Source of the DNA: Gossypium raimondii
Taxonomy: Eukaryota > Streptophyta > Magnoliopsida > Malvales > Malvaceae
Reading direction: 5' to 3'
Assembly: GCF_025698545.1 (NCBI RefSeq)
Contig: NC_068575.1
Location: 57,173,980-57,237,979, forward strand
Length of the DNA: 64,000 bases
The notes under the pieces are model-generated. The model was not told the origin of the DNA, ran no database searches, and saw nothing but the letters and a program-made list of their open reading frames with translations. Numbering within the stretch: the first letter of the stretch is position 1; every line of letters begins with the position of its first letter. Positions 6,581 to 53,875 of the stretch are shown piece after piece. A program made the position numbers and the translations under genes.

Positions 6581-8321
6581 ATGAACGGTAAGCCCTTTCT
6601 TTCCATCTTTTCCACTTTGTTACTCCAGTTACTTTATCGGGTTCTCCTCAGAATCAAATTTGAACGGTTAGAATTTGATTTGTATGACTCTGAACTGATA
6701 AGATTCCTTTTTTCTTATTTCCTTTCTTTTGTGGGGAGTAGACTCCATCCTCTCTTTTTTCTTTTTCTTTTGTCGATTCGTGATGATATGATTCTTTACC
6801 ACTCAAGGTTTTTTTTTTTTTTTTGGTTAGTACAAATTTGGAATATGGCACCTAAAACAAAGTTGAAATACTGTCTGATTTAGCTTGCTTTTCTGAACAT
6901 CGCTTAATTTTACCCAAATATTGGTTTATATTGCCCCTAGCAAATCAGTTAATCTCCTTTTTGCACTGATTTATTGTAGTCGATTGAGGACTAAATTAGA
7001 TAAGCAATTACTCTTTTAAAATAACATATTTTTGGGTTTTAGTTTTATGTTTGCTTGCTTGTGTTTTCCAGTATCTTATTGAAGTTTGGTAATATAATCC
7101 AGGGAGGATTAGTAGATTATTGTAACTTTTAAAATAGTTATGTTTGAGAAGGTTTTAAGAATTGGGATTAGATAAAAGTATTGCTTACAATTTGAGTTGC
7201 ATTGAATTACAGATAATCTAGAACAGATGTTGATCCAGGACGAAAATTTAACGGACCGGTCGCCGTTTCTTAAACTCAGGCGATGGCAGTGGTGGCTTTT
7301 GGTGGCAATCAACATTTTGTTCCTTATTGCAGGCCAAGCTGCTGCAGTTCTTCTTGGGAGATTTTATTATGATCAGGGTGGAAATAGTACATGGATGGCA
7401 ACTTTTGTGCAAACGGCTGGCTTCCCAATCCTTTGCATCCCTTTAATTTTTCTTCATCCATCTCAGAAACTGGAAACGTCAACTTCTTCAACCTATCCTT
7501 CCATCAAGATTGTTGCTTTGCTCTATTTTGTTCTCGGATTACTCGTAGCAGGTGACAATATGTTGTACTCTGTTGGGCTGTTGTACCTCTCAGCCTCTAC
7601 TTATTCCCTCATTTGTGCCACCCAATTAGCTTTCAATGCAGTTTTTTCGTATTTGCTTAATTCACAGAAGTTGACTGCTTTAATCCTCAACTCCGTGGTT
7701 ATCCTCTCGTTGTCCGCTGCTCTGATAGCAGTGAATGAAGATTCAGATGGACCGTCAGGAGTTTCCAAGGGAAAGTATCTGGTTGGCTTTATCTGTACCC
7801 TTGGTGCTTCTGCTCTTTACTCTCTTTTACTCTCCCTTATGCAACTTTCGTTTCAGAAGGTGTTGAGAAAGGAAACATATAATGTGGTTTTGGAAATGCA
7901 AATTTATACATCACTTGTGGCGACATGTGTTTCGACTGCGGGTATGTTTGGGAGTGGGGAATGGAAAGGATTGCAGGATGAGATGAAGGGTTTCAAAAGC
8001 GGAAGAGTTTCGTATGTGCTGACGTTGGTTTGGACAGCGGTAAGTTGGCAGGTATGTGCTGTTGGGGTGGTAGGGTTGATTTTCGCAGTGTCGTCCCTCT
8101 TCTCCAACGTGATCAGTACTCTATCATTGGCTATTACACCTCTAGCTGCTCTGCTAGTTTTTCATGACGAGATGAATGGGGTGAAGGTAATTGCTATGCT
8201 TCTGGCGCTCTGTGGTTTTTGCTCTTATATTTATCAAAATTATCTAGATGATACAAAGGCAAGGAAATCGGAATCACAATCACATACTGATGATGTTATT
8301 CAGGAAAGCCATCATGTATAG
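6581..8321 (+). CDS. PUP: Purine permease (PUP10/11-like), two exons
   Basis: CDS join(6581-6587, 7213-8321), 371 residues. Exon 1 encodes only ATG AAC G. The intron (6588-7212) is GTAAGC to TTACAG, and the spliced start reads MNDNLEQMLIQDENLTDRSP. I prefer this start because the junction is in phase and the added residues are plausible; the internal ATG at 7227 is the alternative. The protein has about ten membrane spans, starting at WWLLVAINILFLIAGQ, followed by the family signature LGRFYYDQGGNSTWMATFVQ, and later blocks SASTYSLICATQLAFNAVFS and ISTLSLAITPLAALLVFHDE. These mark the plant purine permease branch of the drug/metabolite transporter superfamily, which moves adenine, cytokinins or related bases with protons across the plasma membrane or tonoplast. 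Substrate cannot be read from sequence. Length is normal and there are no lesions. Confidence 0.93.
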
Positions 8322-9023
8322 TTCTTCCTCTTGCTAACTTGGTTCCAATGCATTCAATTTACTCTCATAGAAAATGGATTGGATAGTCTTTTATCCTTTT
8401 TTCTTTTTTCTTTTTTTATTTGGAATAGGAAATAAAAAACAAAATGCTGTAATTGCTATAGTGAAGTCAAGTCAATCTCTGTTTTTCCTTTACATTCAGA
8501 CTAGCTTGTTTACTGTGGAATTATTTCTCATGTGATTAGCAGTTTAAAGCTATTCCACCTTCAACTTAGGATTTGAATAAGACTTGTGAATTGTTTTATT
8601 ATCTATCTATTGCATAGCATTAGTTTGTGCTAAGATATTTAAAATTGAACTAATTAAAGCATATTATATATGTAAGCATTGAATAAGCAGCACATGCATA
8701 GGAGGTACTTAGAAGTTAAATCAGAATAGGAGCGACTGATCTGTGCAATGAAGAACAAAATGTTGTGAATGGCATGGGTGGATGATTTTGATATATAGCC
8801 ATGCAATATTGATCTATCAATCATAGGGAAAGTGCCTTCAAAACAGACTGGAAGAGATGCTTCTACTCGCATTGCCAAGGCATAAGTTGACGTTACAACC
8901 ATGCATTTCAAGAGACCAAACCTTTTTAAAAATAATAATAATAATGGATTCTGACAAATGTGAGATTTCAAAAAACTGTTGGCAATTGTATCAAGCAAGG
9001 GGCATTGTAGCTCATTTCCAACA
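8322..9023. other. 3' UTR of the permease and spacer; no gene seen
   Basis: T-rich 3' flank followed by AT-rich DNA with short open frames lacking domain signals. Ends at the left terminus of the Mutator-like element. Confidence 0.5.
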
Positions 9024-9081
9024 GTACTTACGAAAATTTTTTCACTAAAAATATTATTTACTGGAATAGTTTAAAAAATGT

Positions 9082-9190
9082 AAAATGCGTTTACGTAGGA
9101 GCGCTTTTTGGAGAAATCGTAGAAAAATGCGCTAACGTGGGAGCGCTTTACCCCGTATCAGTAAAAGCACGCTGATGTGGGCGTGTTTTA
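9082..9190. repeat. Modular dyad repeats in the left MULE terminus
   Basis: Three adjacent modules of similar design: 9082-9106, 9124-9150 and 9163-9190. Each has a stem (GCGC...GCGC or CACGC...GCGTG) around a core like TNACGTNGG or TGATGTGGG. The right terminus repeats the last two modules in inverted order. They may be transposase-binding sites or cruciform-forming DNA (inference). Confidence 0.6.
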
Positions 9191-9229
9191 CCCCGTGTTT
9201 AATTAGGGTTTTTTGGTTATATGTATATT

Positions 9230-9330
9230 GGGGCTTAGGGTTAGGGTTAGGATTTTTGGAAAAATAAATTAGGGTTTATGGTTTTAAAAAATAAATTAAG
9301 GTTTAGGGTCTATTGTTTTAGGGTTTAATT
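9230..9330 (+). repeat. Telomere-like TTTAGGG/TTAGGG short array in the MULE subterminal region
   Basis: Several interspersed copies of TTAGGG and TTTAGGG-like heptamers lie just inside the left terminal repeat. The related non-autonomous element at 41761-43024 has a matching CCCTAAA-rich stretch near 42710-42810, so it belongs to the element type and need not be a captured telomere. Confidence 0.55.
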
Positions 9331-9479
9331 TTTTAATTGGTAAGTATTGTTCCGAAAGAAATAAATTTGACAAGATGGGATATGAAAAAATAAATTTGAC
9401 GTGATGTGTTTTGAAAAAAATATTTTGATGAGATGAATTTTGTTTTTTTGTTTTTGTACAATCAGTAATTGTATAGAAA

Positions 9480-9890
9480 AAGCTTCCAGAAAAAATAATT
9501 TTTAGAAGATGATTCTGAAAAAATATCCCAAAATTCTCAAGAAATCTAATAGTTGAGGTTGAAAAACGTTTCAAGTAGGATGCACTGTCAGCAAAAGTAC
9601 TGAAAAAAGCTCTCAGCTGAACCCTTTTTTTGTACAGTTGATTCTGAAAAAATAATTTTTGAGAATATGGTTCTGAAAAAATATCCCATAATTCATGGGA
9701 AATATGATAGTTTGGATTGAAAAACGCTTCAAGCAGGATGCACTGTCAGCAAAAGTATTGAAAAAGCTCTCAGATGGATGCTCTTTTCAGTAGTGCTGGT
9801 GACAAACGCTTCAAGCAGGATGCACTGTCAGCAAAAGTATTGAAAAAGCTCCCAGATGGATGCTCTTTTCAGTAGTGCTGGTGACAGTGT
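9480..9890 (+). repeat. Subterminal direct repeats upstream of the MULE transposase
   Basis: A block containing TTCTGAAAAAATATCCC, AAACG(C/T)TTCAAG, AGGATGCACTGTCAGCAAAA and AAAAAGCTC occurs at about 9510-9620 and 9660-9770. Its second half, extended by GATGGATGCTCTTTTCAGTA, recurs at about 9804-9880. Spacing suggests unequal duplication of a promoter-proximal segment. Confidence 0.7.
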
Positions 9891-9909
9891 ATCCCACTAT
9901 CCCTTAGGC

Positions 9910-9916
9910 TATAAAT
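9910..9916 (+). promoter_or_regulatory. TATA box of the MULE transposase
   Basis: TATAAAT in the context GGCTATAAATGAGCC, about 190 bp before the transposase ATG. A 5'-UTR intron follows (about 10004-10087, GGTATAAG donor, TTTCGACAG acceptor). Position and intron both fit a promoter. Confidence 0.6.
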
Positions 9917-10663
9917 GAGCCAAATTTCATTCTCTTGTTGCATAAGTTACAACAAGAGAAATTGAAAAAATTCAGAAGAATAGAAATTGAAGAAGTTGAG
10001 AAGGTATAAGTTGATTTATCGTATTAATATTTATACGAATCATTATATTTTTGCATAATGTTTTTTGTTTTGAATTTCTTTCGACAGATAATTTGATTGA
10101 AAATGAGTGAACGTATTAATGTTGTTATTTACTACGACGGTGAGGTCCGTGACACCGAGAATGACGTTTTTTATCACAGAACACAATGCGACTGATTTTT
10201 AACCAGAACATAGAATTGACAGAACTTCGTAAAAGAATTAGGCGCAAAATCTTCGGAACGATGCCAATGAGAGTTTTGTCTATTAATTTGTGCTTCGGTT
10301 GATCCCATGATATATGACTCATTTGATATCAAAGGTGCTCATGGCTTGGAGGCGATGGTGCAAATTCACCTCGCTAGTGGATCACCTTATCTTGAGTTAT
10401 ATGTGGAATTTTCATCGCCAAATGAAGCACTTGCGACTTCAATATCTATTACTGTTCGAGAGGAATAAACGACCCTTGCCCGACTTCATTAGTGGATGGG
10501 ACATACACCTGGGTAGGTTGATGTTCAATACTGGAAATACTTACTGGGAATGACATCAACTTCTAATGGTTGACAATCCACATCTGATTGGGGACGTTAT
10601 GAAACGTACACGAGAAGGGATGATGTACTCCCTACGACGTCCACCGGCGAGGGGACCTCATAC

Positions 10664-11431
10664 TAGACCTGTCCATGGGCCGGGCCGGGCCCACAAAAAA
10701 ATTTTAGCCCGTTTACTAGTCCCGGGCCCGGCCCGGCCCGGAATATGGGCCTGAGATTTTGCCCAGGCACGGCCCGAAGAAAAAATATGGGCCCGACCCG
10801 GCTCGTTTTTAATTAAAATTAAAATTATTTTTTAAATAAAATTAAAACTAATTGTTAGTAAAATTATCAAATTATTAATTGTTAATTGTATTAATTGTTG
10901 TAATAAAATCTAACTTTTGATTAGTAAATTTATCAAATTATTAATTGTATTAATTGTATTAATTGTTGTAATAAAATCTAACATTTGATTAGTAAATTTA
11001 TCAAATTATTAATTGTATTAATTGTATTAATTGTTGTAATAAAATCTAACATTTGATTAGTAAATTTATCAAATTATTAATTGTATTAATTGTATTAATT
11101 GTTGTAACAAAATCTAACATTTGATTAGTAAAACAAACTTGATGTTTTATTATTATTATTTTGTAACACTAGTCAAGGAAATGAAAGTAAATAAACTTAA
11201 AATAAAAAACCATTATATTTTAAAAATAAAAAATATATATTTAATATTTTTCGGGCCGGGCCTAGCCGGGCCCGGGCCAACAAAATCTTGCCCGAGGCCC
11301 GGCCCATTTTTTAAACGGGCCTAAAATTTTGCCCAAGCCCATATTTCGGGCCTATATTTTTACCCAAACCCTCCCATATTTCGGGCGGGCCGTCGGGCCG
11401 GGCCGGGCCGCCCGGCCCATGGACAGGTCTA
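10664..11431. mobile_element. Non-autonomous hAT-type element inserted in the MULE transposase
   Basis: 768 bp, starting TAGACCTGTCCATGG and ending with its inverted copy CCATGGACAGGTCTA. It is flanked by an 8-bp duplication, CCTCATAC (10656-10663) and CCCCATAC (11432-11439), with one mismatch. The 8-bp duplication and TAG-type ends indicate the hAT superfamily. Both ends are GGGCC-rich for about 130 bp; the centre is AT-rich and holds a 68-bp tandem repeat. No transposase. Removing it restores the reading frame of the interrupted MULE gene across the site. Confidence 0.92.
10857..11132 (+). repeat. 68-bp tandem repeat, about four copies, inside the hAT element
   Basis: Unit begins AAATTTATCAAATTATTAAT and ends ACATTTGATTAGT. 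Copies 2-4 are nearly identical; copy 1 is slightly diverged. Likely recent slippage or unequal exchange. Confidence 0.85.
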
Positions 11432-11598
11432 CCCCATACGTTGTAGATGTTGGTGGGTCAAATAATGAGTCCGATGTGGATCCACCTCGAGAGCTCGGTC
11501 TCAATGGTGCAGAAGTTGCATTATTTTCTGAATCGAAGCCTATTCTAACTGAACTTGAAGACAGTGAAGGGGGTTCAGATGAAGAAGAAAATTCGTGA

Positions 11599-11699
11599 TT
11601 CACAGCATACTTGCCTCCAGCCTACATGCTATGTCGATCTATCGGCATATGATGCATTGGAGTTTCCAAATCCATCGGTAGATGATGCATACTCCCAAA
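11599..11699 (+). pseudogene. Short continuation of MULE transposase before the core deletion
   Basis: Another frame carries residues such as DLSAYDALEFPNPSVDDAY, matching the position just after the acidic segment in this transposase type. The sequence then runs directly into GGGCC-rich hAT-like DNA, so the catalytic core was lost at or near 11700. Confidence 0.6.
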
Positions 11700-11798
11700 A
11701 GCTCGCCCGAAATATGGGAGGACTTGGGCAAAAATATAGGCCCGAAAAATGGGCTTGGAAAATAAAATAATGCCCTTTTAACGGGCCTTGCCTCGGGT
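11700..11798. mobile_element. hAT-like GGGCC-rich terminus remnant, left part
   Basis: Matches the inverted right end of the 10664-11431 element (CCCGAAATATGGGAGG, AAAAATATAGGCCCGAAA) but lacks the outer 30 bp or so, including TAGACCTG. Truncated. Confidence 0.65.
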
Positions 11799-13499
11799 TG
11801 TAACAGCCCGATTTTGACCATAATCGGAACAGTGGTTTCGGGACCACACATCCGAGTCTGAAAAATATTTTAATAATTTTTTTCTGTGTTTATTATGTGT
11901 GAATTTATATGTGTGAAAGTTTCGTGAATTAATTTTATTGTTTGAGTGCTTAATTTGAGAATAGGGCTTAATCGCATAAAATAAAAATTTAGTGGTTATT
12001 TTTAGAAGGGCCAAATAGTGGTTGTTCTTTTAATATGAAGGTTTCATGTTGCAATTTTTCCATTGAATTAATGAATGGACGGCACTATGTATATATTATA
12101 TAGTTTTTATAATAATTATAAAGGTTATAATAATAAATAATATATTATAAAGTTATTATAATAAAAAAAACAAACATAAGTTCAAAGCCATTATCATTTT
12201 TTTTTTTGTTTCTACTAACCGAATGTAAAAGAAAAGAAAAAGGAAAGAACAAGCTAATGGTTCGGCCATTTTGAATTTTGATTAAGGTTAGTTCTTTGTT
12301 CGGTTTTTGATAATTTTTACGTTTTTGATATCGTTGTTTTGTGTTCTTCAAAACCCATGCTTCAATTTTTTGAATTGATGATGATTTTGAAATGTGCCAT
12401 TGATGGATGTTTGAGTTTTATGATGTTAGTTGATGAAATATGAAATATGAAATATATGTGTTAGATTAACATGTTTTGTCTTGGGATTTTTGATGAATTT
12501 GAGTATTTAGGGCTAAATTGTGAAAATAAATTTTTGAGGGACTAAAATATGAAATAAATGAAATGCATGGACTTGTATGAGTATAATGAAGTTTCAGCCT
12601 AACCATAGTATAGTCAAAATTTGAATGTTTTGTGTTTTGTGTAATTCGGACTAAATTGTGAAAAATGTAAAATGTTAGGGGCAAATTTGTAATTTTCCAT
12701 TTATGTGTTTTTGGATTAAATTGAAGTTAATAATATTTAATCTAGCTCATTTTAAATATGTTTAGATCAAGAACCAAAGAAATCGGAGCTAGATCAGGGA
12801 AAAACTAAAATCGTCGATTAATTATCCGATTTCAATTTTTCATTGTCCGAGGTAAGTCTAATAGCAATTTAAATGTTATAAAATTGGAATTTATATAAAT
12901 ATATCTATCATATATTTAGTAAGCTGGAACTAAAAGAATATAAATTGAATAAAACTTAGTGATTTTTCTATGTGATAGCCGAACATAGAAATTGATTTTG
13001 GGAGGTTGATATTAATGGTATAAATTACATGTATATTAGCTAAAGTATGCTTTAAGTTCAATGATATGAAACTAATAGTAGAATTTACCTGGATAAGTAG
13101 TTCGAATGTAAGATTTAATTTCTTGAGTTGAAATTAAAGTTATGGTATATATAAAGTTTGAATGTATGCTATAAGTTCTTTGAGTGAACATAATATTATG
13201 AATTATATATATATATATGCACATATGATTCAATATATATATTTAAAGTTCTTGAAATGAATGTAAAGTATGGACTTTACATATGCATGTGTGTGGTTCG
13301 AATAGATATAAATACATATACAAATACTTGAGTTGGATTAAAAGTATAATTTGTAAATGCTTGTATGCTTCGAACATGGATTACAAATTTTCTGGAGATA
13401 AAGTTGAGGTTGTGAATTATACATAAATGTTATGAACATGTGTTGCTATTAAGAAATGTACGAGGAATCATCTTTGTATCTGTGAAATTGAAATTTTCA

Positions 13500-13692
13500 A
13501 GCTAAGCGCCTAGCAGGCTTAATGCCGATGAATTTTTCGGAGTTTACGTCTAGCAGGCTAAGTGCCGGTGATCTAAAACAGGCTATAAGTCTAGCAGGCT
13601 AAGTGCCGGTGATCTGACTCAGGTTATAAACCTAGCAGGCTAAGTGCCGGTGATCTGAATCAGGCTATAAGCTTAGCAGGTTAAGTGCCGGT
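13500..13692 (+). repeat. Minisatellite in the first LTR
   Basis: About four to five copies of a unit of roughly 45 bp containing CTAGCAGGCTAAGTGCCGGT, each separated by AT(C)TGA(A)TCAGGCTATAAG-type sequence. Confidence 0.85.
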
Positions 13693-14684
13693 GAATATGT
13701 TAAATTAAGTGATTATATGCATTTGATATATATAAATATGTAAATGATTTTGGGTTATATAATGGATAAGTACATGAACATTTATTTATATGTATTTGAT
13801 GAGCATATAAATGTTTGGATCTATGTGTTTAGTGAATAGGCACATATATATTGGTTGTTATGAAGATTGTTGAATATACATGTAGGCATTCGGCACATAT
13901 GGATTAGAAGTATAAATGTGCATTTGGTTCATGAAGTTGATAAGTAAAATATAAGCTTTTGACATATGTATTGAAAAGATCATAGAAATGCATTCGATGA
14001 AATCCAAATGATAGGTATATTAGAAATTAGTATATGCAATTAATGATTATGTCTGTAACTTGATTATAAGCATATAATGTTTATACATATGTTCGATTAT
14101 ATGTATTTTTAATTTGCTATAAACTTACTAAGCTATAAAAGCTTACTTTGATTGTTTTTGTCCATTTGTTTTATAGATTTTGGAGTCGCGTTACGAGCTC
14201 GGGGATCATCAGCATAGTCTATCACACTATCGACTTCTTTTGGTATTTTGTTAAGTTGATCTCGATTTTATGGCATGTATAGACTTGAGTTTGTTTTTGG
14301 TTAGTTTTGGATCATAAAATATAAATAGCCATGCGAAAATGGTTTAATTTCCATGTTTGTGATCAGTTTAGTTAAAAAAAATGTTTTGTTCATGATCATT
14401 TTGTTTAAATTGGGTTTTATGTATTTTCGAATGTGTGCTTTGTTTAGTAATGCCTCGTAACTCTAATCCGGGCGACGGACGCGGGTCGGGGAGTTACAAC
14501 ATATGTGGTTCGAATATAGGTTACAAATTCTTTGAGCTGAATTTTAATGTTGTAAATTATACATATGTGGTTCGAATGTTTGTTTGCTATGAAGAATTGA
14601 ATATAATTCAATTCTTACAGAGATACGGTTATTGAGTAAGACTTATGTAAACATAAAGAATTATACGAAAGATCATCCTTGTAT

Positions 14685-14852
14685 CTGAGATTTTCAGGCT
14701 TAATGCCTAGCAGACTTGATGTCGGTGAATTACTTCAGACTTTATGTCTAGCAGACTTGATGTCGGTGAATTACTTCAGACTTTATGTCTAGCAGGCTTG
14801 GTGTCGGTGAAATGTATCGGGCTTTGTGCCTAGCAGGCTTTATGCCGGTGTT
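14685..14852 (+). repeat. Homologous minisatellite in the second, truncated LTR
   Basis: Four copies of a related unit: CTAGCAGACTTGATGTCGGTG with a TTACTTCAGACTTTATGT spacer. Diverged from the first LTR's array, so the arrays evolved after LTR divergence or belonged to different alleles. Confidence 0.8.
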
Positions 14853-16354
14853 TTATACAAGGTTCTATGTTCTATAAATCTTATGTGAGAAATAGTAAAA
14901 ACAAATAAATGTGTTAAGAAAGCTAAATTATTCAGGTATGTGTTAGCCATTTGCTTAATTAGTGTTAAGGTAATTTGATTATTTTAAATTGATAATAGTT
15001 TCAAATGAAATATAGAGTATGAGTTAACCATTTGAATATAAGCATGTTTTGGCATAATGATTTGTTGGAAATTTGGCTTTGCTAAATATTTATGTGTATT
15101 TGGCTATATGGTTTGTTTATATGAAAATACAATGTGATTTTTATTAAAGTGTTATGTGGTAAAAAATATTAGAATATTTGGTTTATTTTAACTTAATGAT
15201 GGAATAAGTATTAGTATATATACATATATGAATTTTTGCTTATGACTTACTAAGCTTTAATAGCTTACTGTGTGTGTTTTTGTTTACCTCTGTTTTATAG
15301 ACTTTGAGAGTCGCGTTACGAGCTCGGGGATCATCAACTTAGTCTATCACACTATCGACTTCTTTTGGTATTTTGTTAAAGTTGAACTCGATCTTATGGC
15401 ATGTATAGGCTTGATTATGTTTTGGTTAGTTTTGGATCATAATATATAAATAGCCATGCGAAAATGGTTTAATTTTCATGCTTGTGTTTGGTTTGGTTTA
15501 AAAATGGCTTGTTCATGACCATTTTGTTTAAATTGAGTTTTATGTGTTTTTGAATGGATGCTTGATGTGTCTAATTTTTATGCTTGAATTTGACTACATT
15601 TGATCATGATTTGAGCTTGCATTTGAATGAGATATTCAAGTTACATGTATGTGATAAATTTGGTTTATGTTAGATATTAAAATCTTGTAATAGGTTAATA
15701 AGTGTTTAATATGTACATAATGAACTAATTATGATTAGTGTATTAAGCCTACTTACATACGTACATGTTATATATATATATATTAGTGATGAGTTTGTTA
15801 TAAATTGTTAATTATGGAACAATATATTTTAGTTCGGTACTATGTAATATTAATTGCGTGCGATGTAATTTAGTTGAATGAAAATAGTTATTTACTAAAA
15901 CATATGAATTAGCAAGTTTATTTTCAGCTTTTGTATTTGGGTTTGACCATTTGAATATTGACTTGTGTTATAATAAAACTAGAAGGGTATATGTGTTTTA
16001 AGTAAATTGGTTTTGTTATTTGAATTTTAATGACTAAGTTGTATATAGAAATATAATGATAAGTCTATTAAATTCAGCCAATGTAAGTTATTGAATGTAA
16101 ACGCATGATATGCCGATTATGAAAAAGTGATTTTTGATTTATTTAATATTTTTGCTTATGATTTATGTGACTACATATCTGTTCGTTTTAAAATATGGAA
16201 TAAATTATAAAGAGTTTATGTTAGCTTTATGATTTAAAATTTGATTGATTTAAGAGACTTGTTTATGTGTACTTGTAAATTGTTCGGATGTGTGCTTTGC
16301 TTAGTAATGCCTCGTAACTCTAATCCGGCGACGGACGCTGGTCGGGGTGTTACA

Positions 16355-16848
16355 CGGGTAATACATTTTTGGCTTGGGCCTGGCCCGAATTCACTAAAGG
16401 AAAAAAAAGATTTGCTCTTTTTTTTAATGTTATTTTCTTGTTGTTTTCTCCCTATTTTGCTACCATTTTACTATTATGTTGCTACTATTTTGTTGTTATT
16501 GTTTTGATATTGTATGAAACTTATTTTATTGTTAATTTTGTTATTATTTTAAAGGCATTTTTTTGTTAAGTTGCATCTATCTTACTCTTATTTAAGTATA
16601 CATATTTTTTAAAATTTATTTTCAATTTGTTGGGAAATGTTTTTTAATATTTTTAGTATTTTTGATGTATTATATATATTTAAAAATTATATCAAAATAA
16701 TATAAAAAATTAATACAGTAGCAGTTTTATCTGGATCGGGCTTGGAAAAAATTTTAAGCCCATTTGTCAGGTCAGGTCGGGCCTAGGTGTAGCTAATGGG
16801 CCTAAATTTTTAGTTGAGCCCAGCCTGACCCAGTCAATAACACCTCTA
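16355..16848. mobile_element. hAT-like GGGCC-rich terminus remnant, right part
   Basis: GGGCCTGGCCCG near 16377 and, at the far end, blocks such as TCGGGCTTGG, CGGGCCTAGG and GTCAATAACACCTCTA, the inverse of a TAGAGGTGTTATTGAC hAT-like terminus. The sequence differs from the left remnant at 11700-11798, so at least two related elements contributed. No matching 8-bp duplication found on the left. Confidence 0.55.
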
Positions 16849-16856
16849 TAAAAGAT

Positions 16857-17705
16857 CAATAAAGATCATTTTCATGATATGTTAGGGATTTTACGGTCAA
16901 ATAACGATAAAGAAGCAAACTACCTTTGTAACATACCTTTCGATTAGTGGACACATTCATATGACAGTGGCCTACGATATGGTCAGATGACCTCAAACCT
17001 AGCCGAATACATCAATTCTGTTCTAAAAGGAACGCGTCATTTGCTGATAACCTCGGTTGTACGAGAGACATGCCGATAATCTCGGTTGTGCGGGAGACAT
17101 TCTTCCATTTGGTGACACTGTTTCCAAAGCGAGCAGTGAGTTATAAAAGCTAAATGCAGGGAGGCCATGTATGGTGTCAGAAGGTAGTGCAAGAAATTAA
17201 TAAGGTCAATGCGCGAGCCAACTCCATGTGCATAATGTGTCACGATCATGATAACCTATGGTTTCGTGTGACGGATTTCAACGAACTAAACCAATGTATT
17301 CTTAGCAGACAATATCGTGTACACCTGAGAAATAGGACTTGTGACTGTGGGAGGTTTGACGCACTTCGTTATCCATGCGCTCATGTAATTGCAGCTTGTT
17401 AGAATCTTCGTTTGGATCCCATGAGCTATGTCGACAAAGTGTACAAATTAGAATATATGTACAACATGTGGAGACACGTATTCCCACCAGTCTTAGATGA
17501 ACGTAAGTGGCCATCTGTATCGCTTGCTCCATTTAAGTTGTTATCGGATAGAGAATTACTTCGCAAACCAAAAATTCGACCGTGTTCGACTAGAATACAT
17601 GATAATATGGATATCCAGGAAAGAACGAACCAACAGAAGTTATGCAAGTGGTGTAGGAACCCGGGTCACACAATGCAAACATTTCCAAGTCGAAATAACT
17701 CCTAA
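16857..17705 (+). pseudogene. MULE transposase, C-terminal part with SWIM zinc finger, broken
   Basis: Reads as the end of a MuDR-type transposase: SNLAEYINSVLKGTRHL (about 16996), MQGGHVWCQKVVQEINK (17154 on), then the SWIM finger with CDCG, Cys and His in RTCDCGRFDALRYPCAHVIA, then LDPMSYVDKVYKLEYMYNMW and the tail CKWCRNPGHT, ending at 17705. Lesions: CAG to TAG at 17400-17402, a 29-bp tandem duplication near 17043-17100 (GATAACCTCGGTTGT / GATAATCTCGGTTGT), and frame changes upstream. With the N-terminal part at 10103 it forms one gene that has lost its catalytic middle. Confidence 0.88.
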
Positions 17706-17934
17706 TTTATTAAATGAAACAATAAAAAAATAGTTTGTATTGCCTTATTCAAAAGAACTTATATTTTATTAAATAGAGCAATATAAAAAAATTTGTACAA
17801 AAATATTCAAAACAACTTATGTTTTATTAAATGAAACAATATAAAAATAATTTGTTCAAAAATATTCAAAACAACTTCTATTTTATTCAATGAAACAATA
17901 TAAAAATAGTTTGCACAAATATATTTTAAAAAAA
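17706..17934. repeat. AT-rich tandem repeat between the two convergent MULE genes
   Basis: About four copies of a unit of roughly 60 bp containing TTTTATTAAATGAAACAATA, AAAAATAGTTTG and AATATTCAAAACAACTT. It separates the transposase stop from the stop of the opposite-strand gene and probably holds both poly(A) regions. Confidence 0.75.
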
Positions 17935-19988
17935 TTAATGCTTGTGCTGATCGAAATTAGTGTCACATGGGGGTGGTCGATGGTTACGCGTTGAATTCCT
18001 TCTTAGTTCAGCTTCCGGCCGAGGTTGTGGTTGTTCAAGATCAACTTCTGGTTGTGGGTGCTGGGAGGATGACCTACCTTGATAGAACAAAGATTGTAGA
18101 TATGTTTGCATCACCCACAGCGGAGGTGTTTGAAGCTCAAAAGGCGATGGGAATTGGAAATGAGATGAGCTCCCCAATGGTGCCTCGTGCGGTCTCTTCT
18201 GCGACAATGGCCTATATATCTTCGGTTGAGTTGAAGTCATCGGGAAATGAGATGCATCGGGCCATGTGTTCCAACCTTGCATGGGAGTGGAAAAAGGAAA
18301 CATATAAGGGTTAGGATACACACCTGGCATAATCTGAAGGGGTTGTGGTGTGGACATCGTCGATTGTTCTGTTAGGGCCAGTGATTGCGTGTGCGCTGTT
18401 GATGGGCCCGCCCCGCCAGCCATTGTTATTAGATTTAAAGAGCCCCGATGTTTCCTTTCAACTTAGAGTTACCGACGCCTCTGTTCTTCCGAGAGCAAAT
18501 ATGACTTGCCATAGATCCTAAACCATGGCATGGAATCCGACTTGCACGCTAACTCCGGAACGATAACCAGTTCACGAGTAAGTACATTATCATACCGATT
18601 TTTCCACATTTTGATATATTCTGAGTGAAAGACCAACCAATGCGTATTCGGTCACTGTAAGTCGATTTTGTGCTCATCATCGAGCACCTTATGTGCCATA
18701 GGAATCGGTTGTCAGAATCCAAATTGCCACAACACTCTATCCGTCTAGCACATTTCGACGGTAGCGTAGTTGACCAATGAGACCTTAGCGTGCCAGATGT
18801 TCGGATTCTGTAGGAATTTATCCGAAATTACTGCCCGAATTGTTGGATCCTCGTATGGTGTCCATTGAAACTATATGAACGTGATAAAAATATTAGTTAT
18901 ATACATAATATAAAATACTAAATATGAAATTGACTATGTTATTTATATATAGTTCAAAATGAAATAAATACTTACATGCGCTTTCGACCGTTGGTCTAAT
19001 AGAAGCCGTATATCTTCAAGAGCAGTAGGTATTCCCTTGTAACTTGCCGAATGGTTCCACCTATTTAAATAAAATTTTAGCATTAAATTATTTTTTAAAA
19101 CTATGTAATATTTGTAAATTTTAATATAAATTTTACATTGTTAAGAGTGGGAATGTATATGGATGGTTCACTCAATGACGTAAAAATAGAAAATGAAACC
19201 GAGCCCATGATTGTAGCAATGAGAGGCAACTTCCGATTTTGATTTTATTTGGTTGCGTTACTCGACACATCTCCCGGTATAATGTGGACAACATGGCAGA
19301 CCCCCAACTGAGTTCGCCAGCTGCTTTAAAATCGACGAGTTTTAGCAACCACATCAGATGTACGAGATTTCGTGACTTGTCCATCATTAGATAACCTCCG
19401 AGGATCTGAAGGATATATGTTCGAGCATATCATATTCTTCCTACTTTAGTCGAATCATCCTCCGGCTCTGGGAATATGTCTCGTAACTAGCCCATATCAA
19501 TCCAACCTCCGTAAATAATATCCGGAATCGCACCCAAAAGATCGTAGCATATGACTCCCCAATCAGGAAATTGAGCAGACCCAGTGAGTACGGACTCATC
19601 CACCGGAAACCCCAATTGTAATTGCACGTCCTCCAAAGTGATGATACACTTCCCGCATGGAAGATGGAATGTGTGCGTCTCGAGTTTCCACTTCTCCACG
19701 AACGCGCTAATGAGTTTCAGGTCCAACTTGCACCCCCAGCCTATATTGGCCACTTGCCAAAAACTCGCTTCCCTCAAGTAATTTTTAATTAACGGTAATG
19801 GAGGACCAGACATATTACAAATAAAACATTGTAACACTCGATCTACCGACTGTTATAAAAAATTAATTAAATTACAAAAATGAAATACAAATATTAAATA
19901 ATATTAAAAAATTGAAATTAACCCTTACCATTTTTATTTGGTCGACAGAGATATATTTATCATCGAGATGAATTAATTGTTGGGCCAT
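17935..19988 (-). pseudogene. Plant mobile domain (MAIN-like / 'phosphatase 7 long form'-type) gene carried by the MULE, broken
   Basis: The first exon (19988-19929) encodes MAQQLIHLDDKYISVDQIKM and ends at GTAAGG. The next starts at 19849 after AACAG and encodes the plant mobile domain: ASFWQVANIGWGCKLDLKL, THTFHLPCGKCIITLEDVQL, LQLGFPVDESVLTG and IYGGWIDMG. Later parts are RNLVHLMWLLKLVDFKAAGE (about 19370) and a Pro/Gln-rich C-terminus (18423-17935) ending QHKH. Lesions: TGG to TAG right after WIDMG (about 19485), a TGA soon after, and further frame breaks to 18424. Plant mobile domain proteins such as MAIN act in silencing and genome stability; the domain is also known from transposons. 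Here it sits inside the MULE, convergent to the transposase. Confidence 0.85.
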
Positions 19989-20274
19989 TGCTAATACAAT
20001 CAAATTTCTTAGAAATTATATAAATAATAATAATAATTTAGACAAAAATTAAAAATTTAGAGAGTTTTGAGAGCTTTTTTTGAGAAATTTAGATATAAAT
20101 TTGGAAGAAGTATAATTTAGAAGAAATTTTGTGTGAAAAAAATGGGGGGTTTATATTTTTTTTCCTAACCGTTGGGCCCAACGGTCAAAATTCAAATGAC
20201 CATTGAGCCCAACGAACAAATTTTTAAATAATCGTTAGAGGTGACCGTTGGGGAAAAGACAAGGGTAAAGTGCA

Positions 20275-20424
20275 CCCATGCCAGCGTGTTTTTGCTGACA
20301 CGGGGTAAAGCACTCCTACGTCAGCGCATTTTTTTATAATTTCCCCTAAAAATATTCTGCGTTTTACATTTTTTAGACCATTCTAATAAATAATGTTTTT
20401 AGTGGTCCATTTCCATAAGTAATC
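20275..20424. repeat. Right terminal inverted repeat of the MULE
   Basis: Contains GCCAGCGTGTTTTTGCTGAC, GGGGTAAAGCACTCCTACGT and CATTTTTTAGACC, the inverse of the left terminus. Confidence 0.8.
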
Positions 20425-20796
20425 ACATTTTCTTGTACAATACCGTTAAGCAAGTTTACTCGAGAAAAAAAAAAAAAGAAACGGCTTTATGGTAAAAAGG
20501 ACATGTTGAGTACTCAATGTCTAGGGAAATCTAAGGAACGCATAGCATGGTGGAGGTTGTACAGTACAGGCAATTTGGGAGCCAAAATGCCTTTCTGAAA
20601 TCTCACCCTGTAATGAAGAAATTTACTCCGATAAACAGTCAAATATCTTCTTTTTATGGTGATGCTAATACTAAGAAACATCTGTATAACATGCAGCATT
20701 TCCATTTTTTCCTCTCATTTTTACTCTAAACAGCTAATAACTGCAGACAAGCAATGGCGAATATGTAGCGTCTTCATCATCACTGTGGATCAAATG

Positions 20797-48034: not shown

Positions 48035-51000
48035 TTAACATTTACCCATCTTCCTCACCCGAAGAAAATTCCTGAAACGAGTGACTTGATCAGACGCAGG
48101 AACTTCACCAACTTGAATTGAACCATCAACAACCCTCTCATGAACAAAAAATAAATCTAACTCCACATGTTTAAATTTGGAGTGTAAGACGGGATTGGCA
48201 GCAACAGCAACTGCACTGGAACTATCACACCAAATATTAGGTGTAGTAGCAGACTTAACATGTAATTCTTGAAGCAACGATGATAACCATAGGTTATCAC
48301 TGGTGACAGCAGCAAGACTTCGATATTCAGCTTCAGCTGAGGATCTAGAAACCACTGGTTGTTTCTTAGATGACCATGACACTTGATTCGAACCAAAGAA
48401 TACACAATATCCTGATGTGGAGCGACGATCATCGAAGTTCAACCCCCAATTAGCATCGGCATACCCAACCAGGGACAGTTCTTTGGACGGACGAAAAACT
48501 ACCCCAAAATCAAGAGTACCAGACAAATATCGTAAGATTCTTTTAAGAGCAACCAGATGAACCGTAATGGGGCTATGCATGAACTGACAAACCCTGTTTA
48601 CTGCATACGCAATATCAGGCCTAGTAAGAACAATATACTGTAATGCACCAGCAAGACTCCTATACTCCGTTAGATCTGATAAAAGATCACCGTCATCTTT
48701 AGAAAGATTCGACGAACTATTCATTGGCGTATGAACACTTTTAGCAGTGGACATACCACTTCGCGCAATAATATCACGAATATATTTCTTTTGACACAGA
48801 TGAAGACATCCAGAGGAAGACCAAGTGGCCTCAATCCCAAGGAAATAATGAAAAGCACCCATATCTTTCAACGAGAACTCATCATTTAACAACTGCACAA
48901 ACCAGTCAATAGAATGAGGTGAATTACCAGTCACGATAATGTCGTCCACATATATAAGAACGTATAGTGTGGAATCAGGTCAGACACGAATAAACAATGA
49001 AGCATCCGATTTTGACCCAACAAAGCCAATGGTCGCAAGAAAGGCCTTCAGCTTCACAAACCATGCCCGAGGAGCCTGACGAAAACCATACAAAGCCTTT
49101 CTTAGGCGACACACCAGAGGCTTCCCATCAAAACTTAACTGAACATAACCTGGAGGTTGTTGCATGAATACCTCACTATCAATATCGCCGTTGAGAAACG
49201 CATTATTCACATCAACCTGACGAAGAGGCCAGCCTCTAGAGACAGCAATCGACAAAATGACCCTGATTGTGGCAGGTTTCACTACTGGACTGAACATTTC
49301 CTGAAAATCACAACTCGAAACTTGAGAACAACCTTTTGCTACGAGACGCGCTTTATGACGAATAGGGGTGAGCATTCGATCGAATCGAATCGAAAATTTT
49401 TGAGTTAATCGAGTTTTTGAATCTCGTTTTATCATCCTAACTTTATTTGAAGTTTTCTCGAATCGAGTCGAGTGAGATGGAATCCGAATCGAATCGAATC
49501 GAATATATTTGTTCGAGTTAAATTTTAAAAAATAATTTTGGGTCCTTGTAACCATTGTCACCCATCGTAATAAAATTTGACCACCTTAATCAATTTTTTT
49601 ATTAACTTTCATCACCTCATAATTTATTTATTAATTTTTTATATACTGGTTAGCTTCTTTGCTTGCTTAGTTGTTTCAATTATCTTGATTCTTGTCACTA
49701 TGTATTTTGGAATTAAAAATATATTAAATGTAAAAATATGAATTTTTAATAAAAGTTATTTTAAAAATAAAATGTGAAATTGATATCAATATAAAATTTT
49801 AACATGAATATTTTATGGCATAATTAATAATTCAATTTTAATATAAATAGTCAAGATGACTAAACAATTCAATAATATAAATAATATAAAATGTGAAATT
49901 TAATTTAATAATATAAATAGTAGATATAAATAAAATTATTACTATTTATGCTTAGTGCTTTTTTTTTGGATAATTTTGATTTTTTCTTTGAGAGTAAATG
50001 GTGAGAAGTAAAAGTTTAGGAGGAAAATAAAAAGTTTTGGAGAATAAAAGTTTGAGGGAAAGTAAATAGGGGGAGTAAAATTTTGGAGGGAAAATATTAA
50101 AAAAAAATTGGAGGGGTGAGGGTTTAGGGTAGATGGGAGGTGGGATGGAAAGAGAATAAAATTTTTAGGGGAAAAGTGGGAGGGAGTAAAAATTTTGGGG
50201 GAAAATAAAAGGTTTTGAGGGTTTTTGGGAGTAAAATTTTGAGAAAAAGTAAATGAGAGAGTAAAATTTTGGTGGGAAATGGATTTTGGGTAGATTGGGG
50301 GGTTGGGAGGGGAGGGGAGTAAAAGTTTTGAGGGAAAGTGGGAAGAACTAAAAATTTTGAGAGAAAAATAAAAAGGTTTGGGAGTTTAGGGTAAAAATGT
50401 AAAATATTATAGTTTGATATTCGAATTATTCGTGTTATTCGAATTCGAAAACTCAACTTGATACGAACTCGAAATTCGAAAAAAAAATTCGAGTTGATTC
50501 GATTAACTCGAATAACTCGATTCGTTTAACTCGAAATTCGAATTTTTTTCAATTTTTTCGAGTCGAATCGAGTTTTGCTCACCCCTAATGACGAACAACA
50601 GTACCATCCGGATTCCGTTTGACTTTGAATAACCACTTACACCCAATAATTTTATGATTTGACGGTAGAGGGACAAGGTCCCAGGTGGCATTGCGAATCA
50701 GCGCATTATACTCAGCCTGAGCTGCAACCTGCCACTCAGGGCGAGCACAAGCCTCCTCAATCGTAGATGGTTCCACAACTTCAGCAGTCATGACCTTTGG
50801 CTTGAAAATACCAGCCTTTGATCGAGTTGTCATTGGATGAACATTCGTATTAGGCACACAAATCTCTGGTCCTGTAGGATCAGACGGAACTCCAACAACT
50901 GGCGTAAGAGACTGAACACCTGGAGATTCAGTATTTGAGGAGTTAAAACTAGCATGTATTGAATTACCAGCATCTCTATTTTGAGGAACCGAAGTCCTAT

Positions 51001-53875
51001 CCGAGGAACTGAAACATGCACGAACAGGCAACACGTCCTCCGAAAAAGAAGAAACAGGTTTGACTATTGGAATGCATGTGAGTACAGTTACTACCGTACG
51101 ACCAGATCCCAAGAGAGATGACGGAGACAGAAAATGCAACTCATCAAACTCCACATGACGAGAAATTATAAGCTTCCCATTAGGCAGAAGACACTGATAA
51201 CCATTGTGACGGGAACTATACCCCAGAAAAGTGCAAGGCTATGATAAAAAATCTACCTTGTGTCGCTGAAATGGTCGCAAATACGGATAACAACAACATC
51301 CAAAAACACGTAAATGATCATAATTGGGATCACGCTCGTAAAGAGCTTTAAACGGAGATTGGCCATCTAGTACTGGTGTGGGAAGGCGATTAACCAGGTG
51401 AACGGCACACGTAAACGTAAAAGCCCAGAATGCCATAGAAAGACCCGCTTGAGCCAAAAGAGTAATTCTCATATCCACAATGTGACGATGTTTACGCTCA
51501 GCGACACCATTTTGTTCAGACGTATGCGGACATGTTAGGAGATGAACGATACCTTAAGAAGCCAGAACTGAAGTAAACACTTGAAACTCACCACCCTAGT
51601 CACTCTGAAACTGTTTGATAGATTTACCAAACTGAGTCTGAATCAATTTCTGAAATTGACCAAAGCAATCCACAGCCTGAGACTTTTGGCGAATCAAATA
51701 TACCCAAGTGAACCTTGTATACATATCGATAAACGACACATAATACCAGTTGTTAACGGAAGCAACAGAAGCAAGACCCCAGAGATTAGAAACAACCAAA
51801 GAAAACGGATCAGTATATTCAATAACTGAAACAGAAAACGGTAACTTATGAAACTTTCCTTTTTTACAAGTAGTACAAATACTATCAATAGAACTTTTAT
51901 TAAAATTGATATGACAGTTATTGAGAACAGTCTTGACAACAGATGAAGACGGATGTTCAAGACGCTTATGCCATAACCAAAAGACCTCACTGCTTTCAGC
52001 ACTAGTCCGAAGTTCAACTTGAGCCGTAGACGGAACAGGCGTGTCGGATAGAGAGAAATAATATAGCCCATTATGAATACGGCCCGTCAGCAAAACCTCA
52101 TGTGTCACGCTGTCCTTAATAATACAATAAGTGGGATGAAACTCAAAAAATACACCATTATCAGTAGCAAATTGAGACACCGACAATAAATTTTTTCGAA
52201 TGGCCAGAACACACAAAACATTAGATAATCGAAGTAACCTAGAATGCGTAGACAACACACCTTGACCAATTGACGAAATTACAGAAGGCGTACCATCACC
52301 CATTAAAAGAGAGGACTTACCTGAGTACGGGGTCGCATTATTCAGCGTTGAAGAATCCCGACAAATATGGTTACTGGCACCAGAATCAGGGTCCCAAGAG
52401 GTGCCAACTGGCCCAGGAACTGGTGAGTCAGTGTCATCACCAGTAATCTCATGTGGCGTGGAGTTTATATGCGAGCCGGAAATAGAAGGATCACAATAAT
52501 CAGAGGCATGAATGTCACCTAATCGAGGGAGCCCAACGCACGAATTTGTTCCCAAAAACATGTGAGTCCGCGGTTTAGTACGCCATGGGACTCCTACAGG
52601 GCTGAACTCTTGACAAGGTGACCTAAAATTAGCAGTCGAATCAACCTGCACATTGTTAGTGACGGGCTAATGGGCCATTGTAGGAGCGGAGGGCCCATTA
52701 CCATAAGGAGGCCCAAAATCACAATGTACATCATTATTATTTCCTAAACCATACGGCCCAGAGTTGGGACCAAACGAGGATGGCCCATTAGTTTGCGGCC
52801 TAAACTCATGGTGAGTGGAATTTGGACCAAAACCATGACCAGCCCACCAATTTTGACCATAAGGCATAGTTGGATTAGCACACCAATTTTGACCGTCCTT
52901 ATGCACGGTTTGACCATAAAAAGAAACCCTTGGTCGAGTGTTTTGCTGTGGAGGCCAACCATGAGAACCACACTCATCCGGATTTGTCACCGGAGCGCTG
53001 AACGGAGACATTTCATCACGGTGGTAACGATAGAAGCAGCATTGGGTGATGTGGCCAAAACGAGAGCAGATCTGAAATTGAAGCCGTTGCCGAAAAGTTC
53101 TGCCACGACCACGCGAGATTGGCCAACCACCATGCGACGAACCTTCAATTGCCGACGGTGTAGAGTTTTCCACCAGATTTGAGGCAAACAGAATTTTCTG
53201 AACCGTCTGAATGTTCCGATTCTCACACTCGATTAGAGCATCCACCAAACTCTGAAACGGCAGAGGAGACGACGAAGGAGAAGCAGATGAGACGACACCT
53301 TCAAACTCATACGGAAGACCTGTAAGAAGCACAGTCGTTTGCTCCGTCACTGAAATGAAAGATCCAGATGCTTCTAGAAGAGCACAGAGACTTTTCAACT
53401 TTGCCACGTACTTTCTGATCATTAGATTCCCCTTATTGATTGAGTGAAGTTCATGACGCAACCTTGACTGTTTCAGATCTGTATCGGCCGTAATCATCGC
53501 CAAAGTTGTAGTCCAAACATCAGAGGCCGATTGTACATCCATAAAAAAAGACAAAATTGTCGAGCTTATGGTGGAAAGAAGCCACGAGGTAAGGAGATTA
53601 TCCTGTTGTTGATACGCCGACGCCGCCAGATTAAGCTCAAGAGTACCATCCTGTGCTTGTACAAATCTCGACGGCACAGTAACAGAACCATCAAGAAAAC
53701 CATATAAACCATAACCATTAACAATGAACCGAACCTGTTGCTTCCACTAAAGGAAGGTGCCTTCATCGAGCTTGACAACGTCATGCCGAGGAAAGGAATT
53801 AACAACACGATCAGCAGTAAAAATAGTGCCATGAGGTTCGACAGAGTCTAATGCAGCAGAGTGTGTGGTTGCCAT
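48035..53875 (-). pseudogene. Copia gag-pol polyprotein, several stops
   Basis: Starts at the ATG at 53875 (MATTHSAALDSVEPHG). The gag UBN2-type region is followed by a zinc knuckle (QICSRFGHITQCC) that has lost its first Cys. Protease DSGASNH (about 52380), GAG-pre-integrase HKRLEHPS, integrase with FIDMYTRF, FQSD and SEQNGVAERKH, RT with CKWLFKVKRNPDGT, DVNNAFLNGD and YVDDI (about 48950), and RNase H ending in the chromo-less tail VRKMGKC that runs into the LTR at 48035. In-frame stops: TAG 53749-53747, TAG at 52669-52667, TAG 51598-51596 (in FQSD*GGEF, TGG to TAG), TAA about 51556, TAG 51241-51239, TGA 48982-48980. Not able to move by itself. Confidence 0.92.
49363..50587. mobile_element. 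Non-autonomous hAT-type element nested in the copia RT
   Basis: 1225 bp, beginning TAGGGGTGAGCATTCGATCG and ending with the inverse (GCTCACCCCTA), flanked by a perfect 8-bp duplication ATGACGAA (49355-49362, 50588-50595). The ends are rich in TCGAATCGA repeats. The interior (49980-50390) is a purine-rich imperfect tandem repeat around GGAGTAAAATTTTG. It splits the RT between NPDGTVVR and HKARLVAKG, so it inserted after the copia element. Confidence 0.95.

Follow-up and report, generated by a model that had tools for sequence, protein, structure and literature searches.

A dead MULE copy from a large family whose sampled coding members pair a transposase with a convergent plant mobile domain gene

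The plant mobile domain (PMD), a domain of unknown function, is present in plant transposon-silencing proteins and also in transposons. In the host, proteins with this domain take part in silencing and in the regulation of genes (Ikeda 2017, PMC5418596; Nicolau 2020). In this study, we analyzed a PMD gene within a Mutator-like element (MULE) on a stretch of 64,000 nucleotides (hereafter the window; G000:C11:57173980-57237979 of a 750.8-Mb genome). The element is dead and belongs to a large MULE family, whose sampled coding members carry a MURA-type transposase gene and a PMD gene in convergent orientation and often a tandem-repeat region upstream of the transposase.

The main text of Dupeyron 2019 (PMC6446971) does not expand the letters 'PMD', which we read as plant mobile domain. 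PMD is reported there for several MULE groups: 42 (antisense), 46, 47 and 48 ('in most, sometimes antisense'), 45 (VANDAL; 'PMD and/or DUF in half the members'), 49 (MUDRAVI2; 'in most, often antisense'), and 50 (MUDR; 'in antisense for most of them'), which includes Gossypium raimondii elements. The MUDR and MUDRAVI2 groups resemble the window MULE in their terminal inverted repeats (TIRs), 9-bp target-site duplication where indicated, SWIM transposase, and antisense PMD, and the family of the window likewise has a separate PMD gene antisense to the transposase, the trait of these two groups. In contrast, the MUDRAVI sub-group of group 50 has no PMD entry in the parts covered. The comparison is one of descriptions only, and selection, intactness, and subterminal repeats are not reported in those parts. 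A sequence-only reading of the window had singled out this element as the nearest thing there to an unusual system; this view is not supported, as several MULE groups have PMD in the majority of their members and frequently in antisense (PMC6446971).

According to Ikeda 2017 (PMC5418596), MULEs captured PMD-C twice, giving rise to fusion proteins in the grasses and in Amborella, and an anti-silencing role of the MULE PMD is described there as a tempting speculation; the same idea is given in a 2021 review (PMC8616336). While the PMD-C of the grass and Amborella elements is fused to the transposase (PMC5418596), the family of the window has a separate convergent gene. Eudicots hold mainly genic PMD-C (Nicolau 2020), and a term search of a 2026 gene-capture review (PMC13317346) found no mention of PMD. 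Maize MuDR (PMC3276141) also has two genes, mudrA and mudrB, but mudrB is said there to be confined to Zea and its function is given as unknown.

The VANDAL elements of Arabidopsis share with the window family their MULE nature and extra genes beside the transposase, and the repeats of the window family resemble their same-orientation arrays (Hosaka et al. 2017, PMC5735166). VANC21 targets arrays of motifs in one orientation, which make up tandem repeats and are located upstream of the transposase VANA as well. VANC carries DUF1985 and is a demonstrated anti-silencer (PMC5735166). VANC targets diverge rapidly (Sasaki et al. 2023, PMC10398659). While VANDAL21 has three genes (PMC5735166), the window family has two, its PMD gave only sub-threshold matches to DUF1985 in the proteins scanned and in the genome, and this PMD would be no more than a candidate anti-silencer. 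The arrangement and the anti-silencing idea are already known; what the present analysis adds is a linkage test, evidence of constraint on the PMD, the upstream array, and the lead on DUF1985.

The sequence-only reading had proposed that one TIR pair encloses a MuDR-type transposase and a PMD gene convergent to it, and the inverted ends, the target duplication, and the domain matches bear this out. Pfam matches place the MURA-type transposase on the plus strand (SWIM finger PF04434, E = 1.7e-8) and the PMD on the minus strand (PF10536, E = 5e-16 and 5.9e-18 in two stretches inside 19849-19172). The scan covered ten pieces of the window, eight of them short or broken; of these eight, three matched SWIM or PMD only, and the others gave nothing useful. 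The TIR arms, ~11 kb apart, are 87% complementary at 9043-9088/20359-20404 and 80% complementary at 9105-9193/20263-20351. These arms (9043-9193 and 20263-20404) are part of longer ends, which start with GGG(C)ATTGTAC or similar in the relatives. With its ends set against eight other TIR pairs, window 9000-20445 is one MULE with nested insertions, alignable to its relatives across most of its own length, and the relatives and the target duplication moved the endpoints outward from the earlier 9024/20424 to 9000/20445.

When 9-mers within two bases of the anchors were compared, seven of nine elements showed target duplications of 8/9 or 9/9 (0.1 expected), the window MULE with 8/9, and E_C6a and E_C9 failed the test. 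The anchors were chosen by eye after end alignment of the relatives, so that the number expected by chance may be somewhat underestimated. Three end pairs out of 12 (E_C5, E_C13a, and E_C10) were dropped before the final test. A 9-bp duplication is a hallmark of MULEs, and the window element has the TIRs, the duplication, and the SWIM transposase of a MULE. An earlier search with the ends placed too far inward gave no convincing duplication, an initial loose end alignment that extended into AT-rich flank was discarded, and an 8/8 repeat, CATTTCCA, at 9013-9020/20408-20415 was judged to be chance after the true ends emerged.

Nested insertions abound in the window copy, so that the two genes could in principle overlap by chance, with a separate PMD-bearing element inserted into a MULE. 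However, relative L037 matches window 16853-19315, from the transposase end through the PMD, in one block (2481 columns, 79%), and L022 aligns in two blocks that overlap (17219-17871 and 17749-20423). Since the relatives are colinear from the transposase through the PMD to the right end and no inverted pair surrounds the PMD alone, a separate PMD element, which the sequence-only reading had itself raised, is ruled out, and we consider a chance overlap extremely improbable.

The pairing recurs across the genome. A search with the left end gave 39 matches, and 18 stretches around some of them, making up 17 neighbourhoods, were examined. Transposase and PMD pieces, always convergent, occur together in seven of the 17 (L021, L022, L023+L024, L028, L033, L034, and L037), all of which look decayed, with frames broken in both genes; L035 has transposase pieces only in the stretch examined. 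In a PMD exon search, the best 150 of 4803 candidates were scored, of which 25 by our count contain no stop and 125 contain at least one. Six of the 25 were drawn with their flanks, and all six have convergent transposase pieces beside them (the C-terminus in five, the N-terminus only in L041). The reverse search, in which the best 150 of 2868 transposase candidates were scored, gave a convergent PMD beside each of the eight no-stop transposases sampled near the top of the list, and for four others near the top, at C13:7487345, C6:4763137, C11:46913084, and C10:26032873, a convergent PMD match is listed 1.6-5.8 kb away. Coding relatives kept both genes in this sample, and no transposase-bearing member without a PMD was found among the sampled no-stop transposases.

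At least 26 of the 150 scored transposase matches, including that of the window, have a convergent PMD match within 7 kb. In total, 28 transposase-PMD pairs lie within this distance, 26 convergent and two otherwise oriented, while 0.7 would be expected in any orientation. The count used two PMD lists with 243 distinct places and excluded second-half-domain rows and the five top PF10536 rows (four long host-like or broken genes and the locus of L065, the nearest clearly host-like gene found). Since only part of each family was scored, 26 is a lower bound. These results confirm that the paired arrangement is real and more than chance. Scored PMD matches of the family type number at least 150 in this genome, in which PF10536 has 6035 first-look candidates; the latter figure, like 4803 for PMD and 2868 for transposase, counts loose first-look candidates and not copies. 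We take this genome to be that of a eudicot, and it would be an exception to the eudicot pattern of mainly genic PMD-C if it is one and if the copies count as PMD-C.

Selection was analyzed on 18 of the 25 no-stop main PMD exons (6 + 12 from two retrievals). Over the 153 pairs, the mean nonsynonymous (dN) and synonymous (dS) distances are 0.107 and 0.293, with a ratio of 0.365. When the tree was divided by hand into three groups, dN/dS came to 0.28 between the pair of groups farthest apart. A codon model on the whole tree of 18 exons gives an omega of 0.683 (lnL -3892.93 versus -3902.48 at omega 1), a better fit than omega 1 by 9.55 log units. The ratio is higher in close pairs and low in distant ones, as would be seen for an element gene whose copies decay once inserted while constraint acts on the lineage that transmits it. 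This shows that the PMD gene has been under past purifying selection inside the elements (dN/dS below 1), a point that the sequence-only reading had proposed to test.

MULEs capture gene fragments. Since capture of PMD-C by MULEs was inferred in Ikeda 2017 (PMC5418596), the PMD gene could be a host fragment without a role that rides with the transposase, as in Pack-MULE-type transduplication. However, its omega is below 1, it stands beside all eight sampled no-stop transposases, and the same layout occurs in one case of a diverged lineage, so that we regard this explanation as largely refuted and very unlikely. A recent capture is opposed by the identity of only 34-40% across the exon to L065, in which, by reading, an apparent intron follows ...LTLLQ where the element gene reads on; because of this identity and this intron difference, the gene does not derive from a recent host-gene capture. 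The label 'MAIN-like' given to the PMD gene by the sequence-only reading therefore applies loosely, the nearest clearly host-like gene being this distant; L065 itself looks MAIL-like in our judgement.

In the tree, which was built without named MAIN/MAIL sequences, the 21 rows of the family PMD cluster together (support 95/93), separate from four host-like genes (L065, L066, L067, and L068) and from a second PMD lineage (L070 and L071). The family PMDs are nearer to L065 than to L066-L068, and L065 itself groups with the second lineage (88/86), whose PMDs are 41-50% identical to the family PMD (45-50% to L041). The stretches adjoining L070 and L071 are L072 and L073, respectively. The transposase of L073 is convergent to the L071 PMD and 40-43% identical to the family transposase, and no transposase match of weight was found in the 2.8 kb of L072, beside L070. 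Since the diverged second lineage is convergent in one of these two cases (L071/L073), the transposase-PMD pairing looks old. A sequence search with one PMD exon found no match among solved structures at E ≤ 1. L066, L067, and L068 (G000:C1:9061012, C3:61786254, and C13:44826323) have long PMD open frames of 651-887 aa, with the PMD contained in one exon, and resemble host genes from a different PMD branch.

What might the PMD protein do for the element? In maize MuDR, mudrA and mudrB are convergent and read inward from the terminal repeats, and each gene of the present family would likewise be read inward from its own repeat. The PMD protein would be a lasting component of the element and not a passing captured fragment, and it would help the element to transpose or persist. 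The likeliest route would be the blunting or borrowing of host PMD/PP7L-type or related transcriptional silencing, and the PMD may act as a VANC-like factor on the repeat region. We give this proposal about an even chance. Alternatively, the PMD could be a plain transposition helper, in nuclear import, target choice, or insertion, as might be suspected for MURB, and be unrelated to silencing. Like mudrB in MuDR, whose product has no known function (PMC3276141), it accompanies the transposase as a second gene, and it is constrained and linked to the transposase in our samples. On the other hand, the PMD proteins of the host serve silencing and gene regulation, and the PMD weakly resembles the VANC domain DUF1985, and we consider the helper role possible but somewhat unlikely.

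The repeats upstream of the transposase are a candidate target for a VANC-like PMD. The motif CGCTTCAAGCAGGATGC, taken from the window and searched with up to three mismatches, occurs one to three times in the transposase direction in the window, L021, L022, L023, L028, L033, L034, L035, and L037, and thus in all nine coding elements with the transposase side covered. It was additionally found in L041 and also in L029 and L038, both without coding pieces. The motif was not found in L024 (the PMD half), L025, L026, L027, L030, L031, L032, or L036, nor in L039, L040, and L042-L044, stretches that stop short of the transposase side. Same-orientation tandem units, ranging from 82 to 156 bp, are present in six of the eight elements scanned (82 bp in the window, 156 bp in L022, L033, and L034, and 124-125 bp in L037 and L041). 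By analogy, the array may be a target like those of VANC, and we offer this as a lead.

Besides PMD, DUF1985 was by far the commonest Pfam match of the PMD exons, with every match below the curated cut-off. It appeared in nine of the 18 family exons at E ≤ 1 (best 0.017) and in seven of 12 exons of a wider, overlapping PMD set, in which DUF2806 appeared in two of 12 (best 0.03). The E values are 0.0016 for L065, 0.00045 for L070, and 0.0022 for L071. Among the rows shown, the second half of DUF1985 aligns with PMD residues ~128-198, and matches at the same place in diverged PMDs and the host-like L065 speak mildly against chance. A profile search of the genome found no DUF1985 place at E 0.001. 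At E ≤ 10, it gave 148 sub-threshold places (150 scored of 389 candidates), at profile positions 64-140 in the listed rows; 24 of the 148 overlap a listed PMD match, all of these 24 being strand-concordant, with 0.02 expected, and 124 lie on no PMD match among those listed. This overlap test excluded four of the five top PF10536 rows, and nearby transposases were sought among 13 of the 150 scored transposase matches. The PMD copies are kin and not independent, so that one chance likeness would be counted repeatedly. Within the literature searched, no report joining DUF1985 with the plant mobile domain was found.

A broader idea is that the PMD is distantly related to the DUF1985 portion of VANC and that MULE PMDs form a broad VANC-like class of anti-silencers, each acting on a fast-changing array upstream of its own transposase. 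We consider this unlikely. If it were true, the host MAIN/MAIL proteins would share a superfamily with an anti-silencing factor that works on the opposite side, and a real PMD-DUF1985 link would place the proteins of MAIN/MAIL silencing and of VANC anti-silencing in a single superfamily.

Several observations weigh against a PMD protein that acts on silencing through the array. Constraint on the PMD is evidence of use, not of anti-silencing. The exons were selected for the absence of stops, so the sample is biased somewhat towards constraint; 79% of the tree length lies in the end branches, and two exon pairs, both very close, have dN/dS above 1 (up to 1.46), which is expected once copies are dead. 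Nine of the 17 neighbourhoods carry neither gene and are deletion derivatives, single ends, or other families. L021 and L028 have a single CGCTTCAAGCAGGATGC motif and no tandem array among the eight elements scanned, and the repeats could be transposase sites instead. The DUF1985 match is sub-threshold in every protein scanned, and L066-L068 have no such match at E 0.01. Even so, the paired genes, the constrained exon, and the candidate arrays would make the printed idea of a MULE PMD set against silencing testable in one plant, and the repeat array and the DUF1985 lead would give a direct test of this open question.

The window copy itself is dead and cannot act, a point absent from the sequence-only reading, because nested sequence replaces the catalytic core of its transposase and both genes contain stops, one in frame in the transposase C-terminus and two in the main PMD exon. 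In alignment, it lacks element bases 1943-3138 of L022, and the corresponding part of L022 matches PF10551 MULE (E = 4e-7). Since this DDE core, present in L022, is missing from the window copy in comparison with its relatives, the window copy is a broken member and not a different family.

Table 1 Features of the MULE in the window, with coordinates, strand, and basis of each assignment.
Feature	Coordinates	Strand	Basis or remark
Whole MULE, including nested insertions	9000..20445	.	TIR comparison, 9-bp target duplication, relatives
Left 9-bp target duplication, TCAAGCAAG	8991..8999	.	8/9 identical to 20446-20454
Right 9-bp target duplication, TTAAGCAAG	20446..20454	.	Partner of left copy
Left TIR, outer portion poorly conserved	9000..9193	+	Arm alignment, relatives
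Subterminal repeats, motif CGCTTCAAGCAGGATGC three times in a single orientation, spacings 158 + 82 bp	9489..9882	+	Upstream of transposase
Transposase gene, N-terminal piece, frame-broken	10103..10663	+	Reading frames, relatives
Nested insertion, inverted ends TAGACCTGTCCATGG / CCATGGACAGGTCTA, hAT-like by reading	10664..11430	.	Missing in L021, L022, L028, L033, L034
Transposase gene, second piece	11431..11672	+	Relatives
Nested sequence replacing ~1.2 kb of transposase, including DDE region	11673..16852	.	Relatives
Transposase gene, C-terminal piece; SWIM finger at 17313-17399 and, by reading, CCHC-like knuckle	16853..17702	+	
PMD gene interrupted by stops; ~four exons, boundaries deduced from reading frames	17938..19988	-	PF10536 at 19517-19729 and 19178-19423
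Right TIR	20263..20445	-	Arm alignment, relatives

Within the larger nested sequence, a stretch at ~11799-16354 looks by eye like a long terminal repeat (LTR): it starts with TGTAACAGCCC, ends with TGTTACA, and has CGGGT on both sides. It contains direct repeats (14113-14498 versus 15235-15563 and 16283-16354) and may be an LTR, solo or rearranged, that lies nested within the MULE. Elsewhere in the genome, L025, L026, L027, L030, and L036 have inverted-end pairs 0.4-4.6 kb apart with ends in common and neither gene matched, and are non-autonomous kin or related families. Directly left of the MULE, an open purine permease-type frame spans window 7206-8321 (PF16913 PUNUT, E = 1.4e-131). Large open frames in several pieces lie on the minus strand at window 48035-53746 and presumably belong to a Copia-type retrotransposon.

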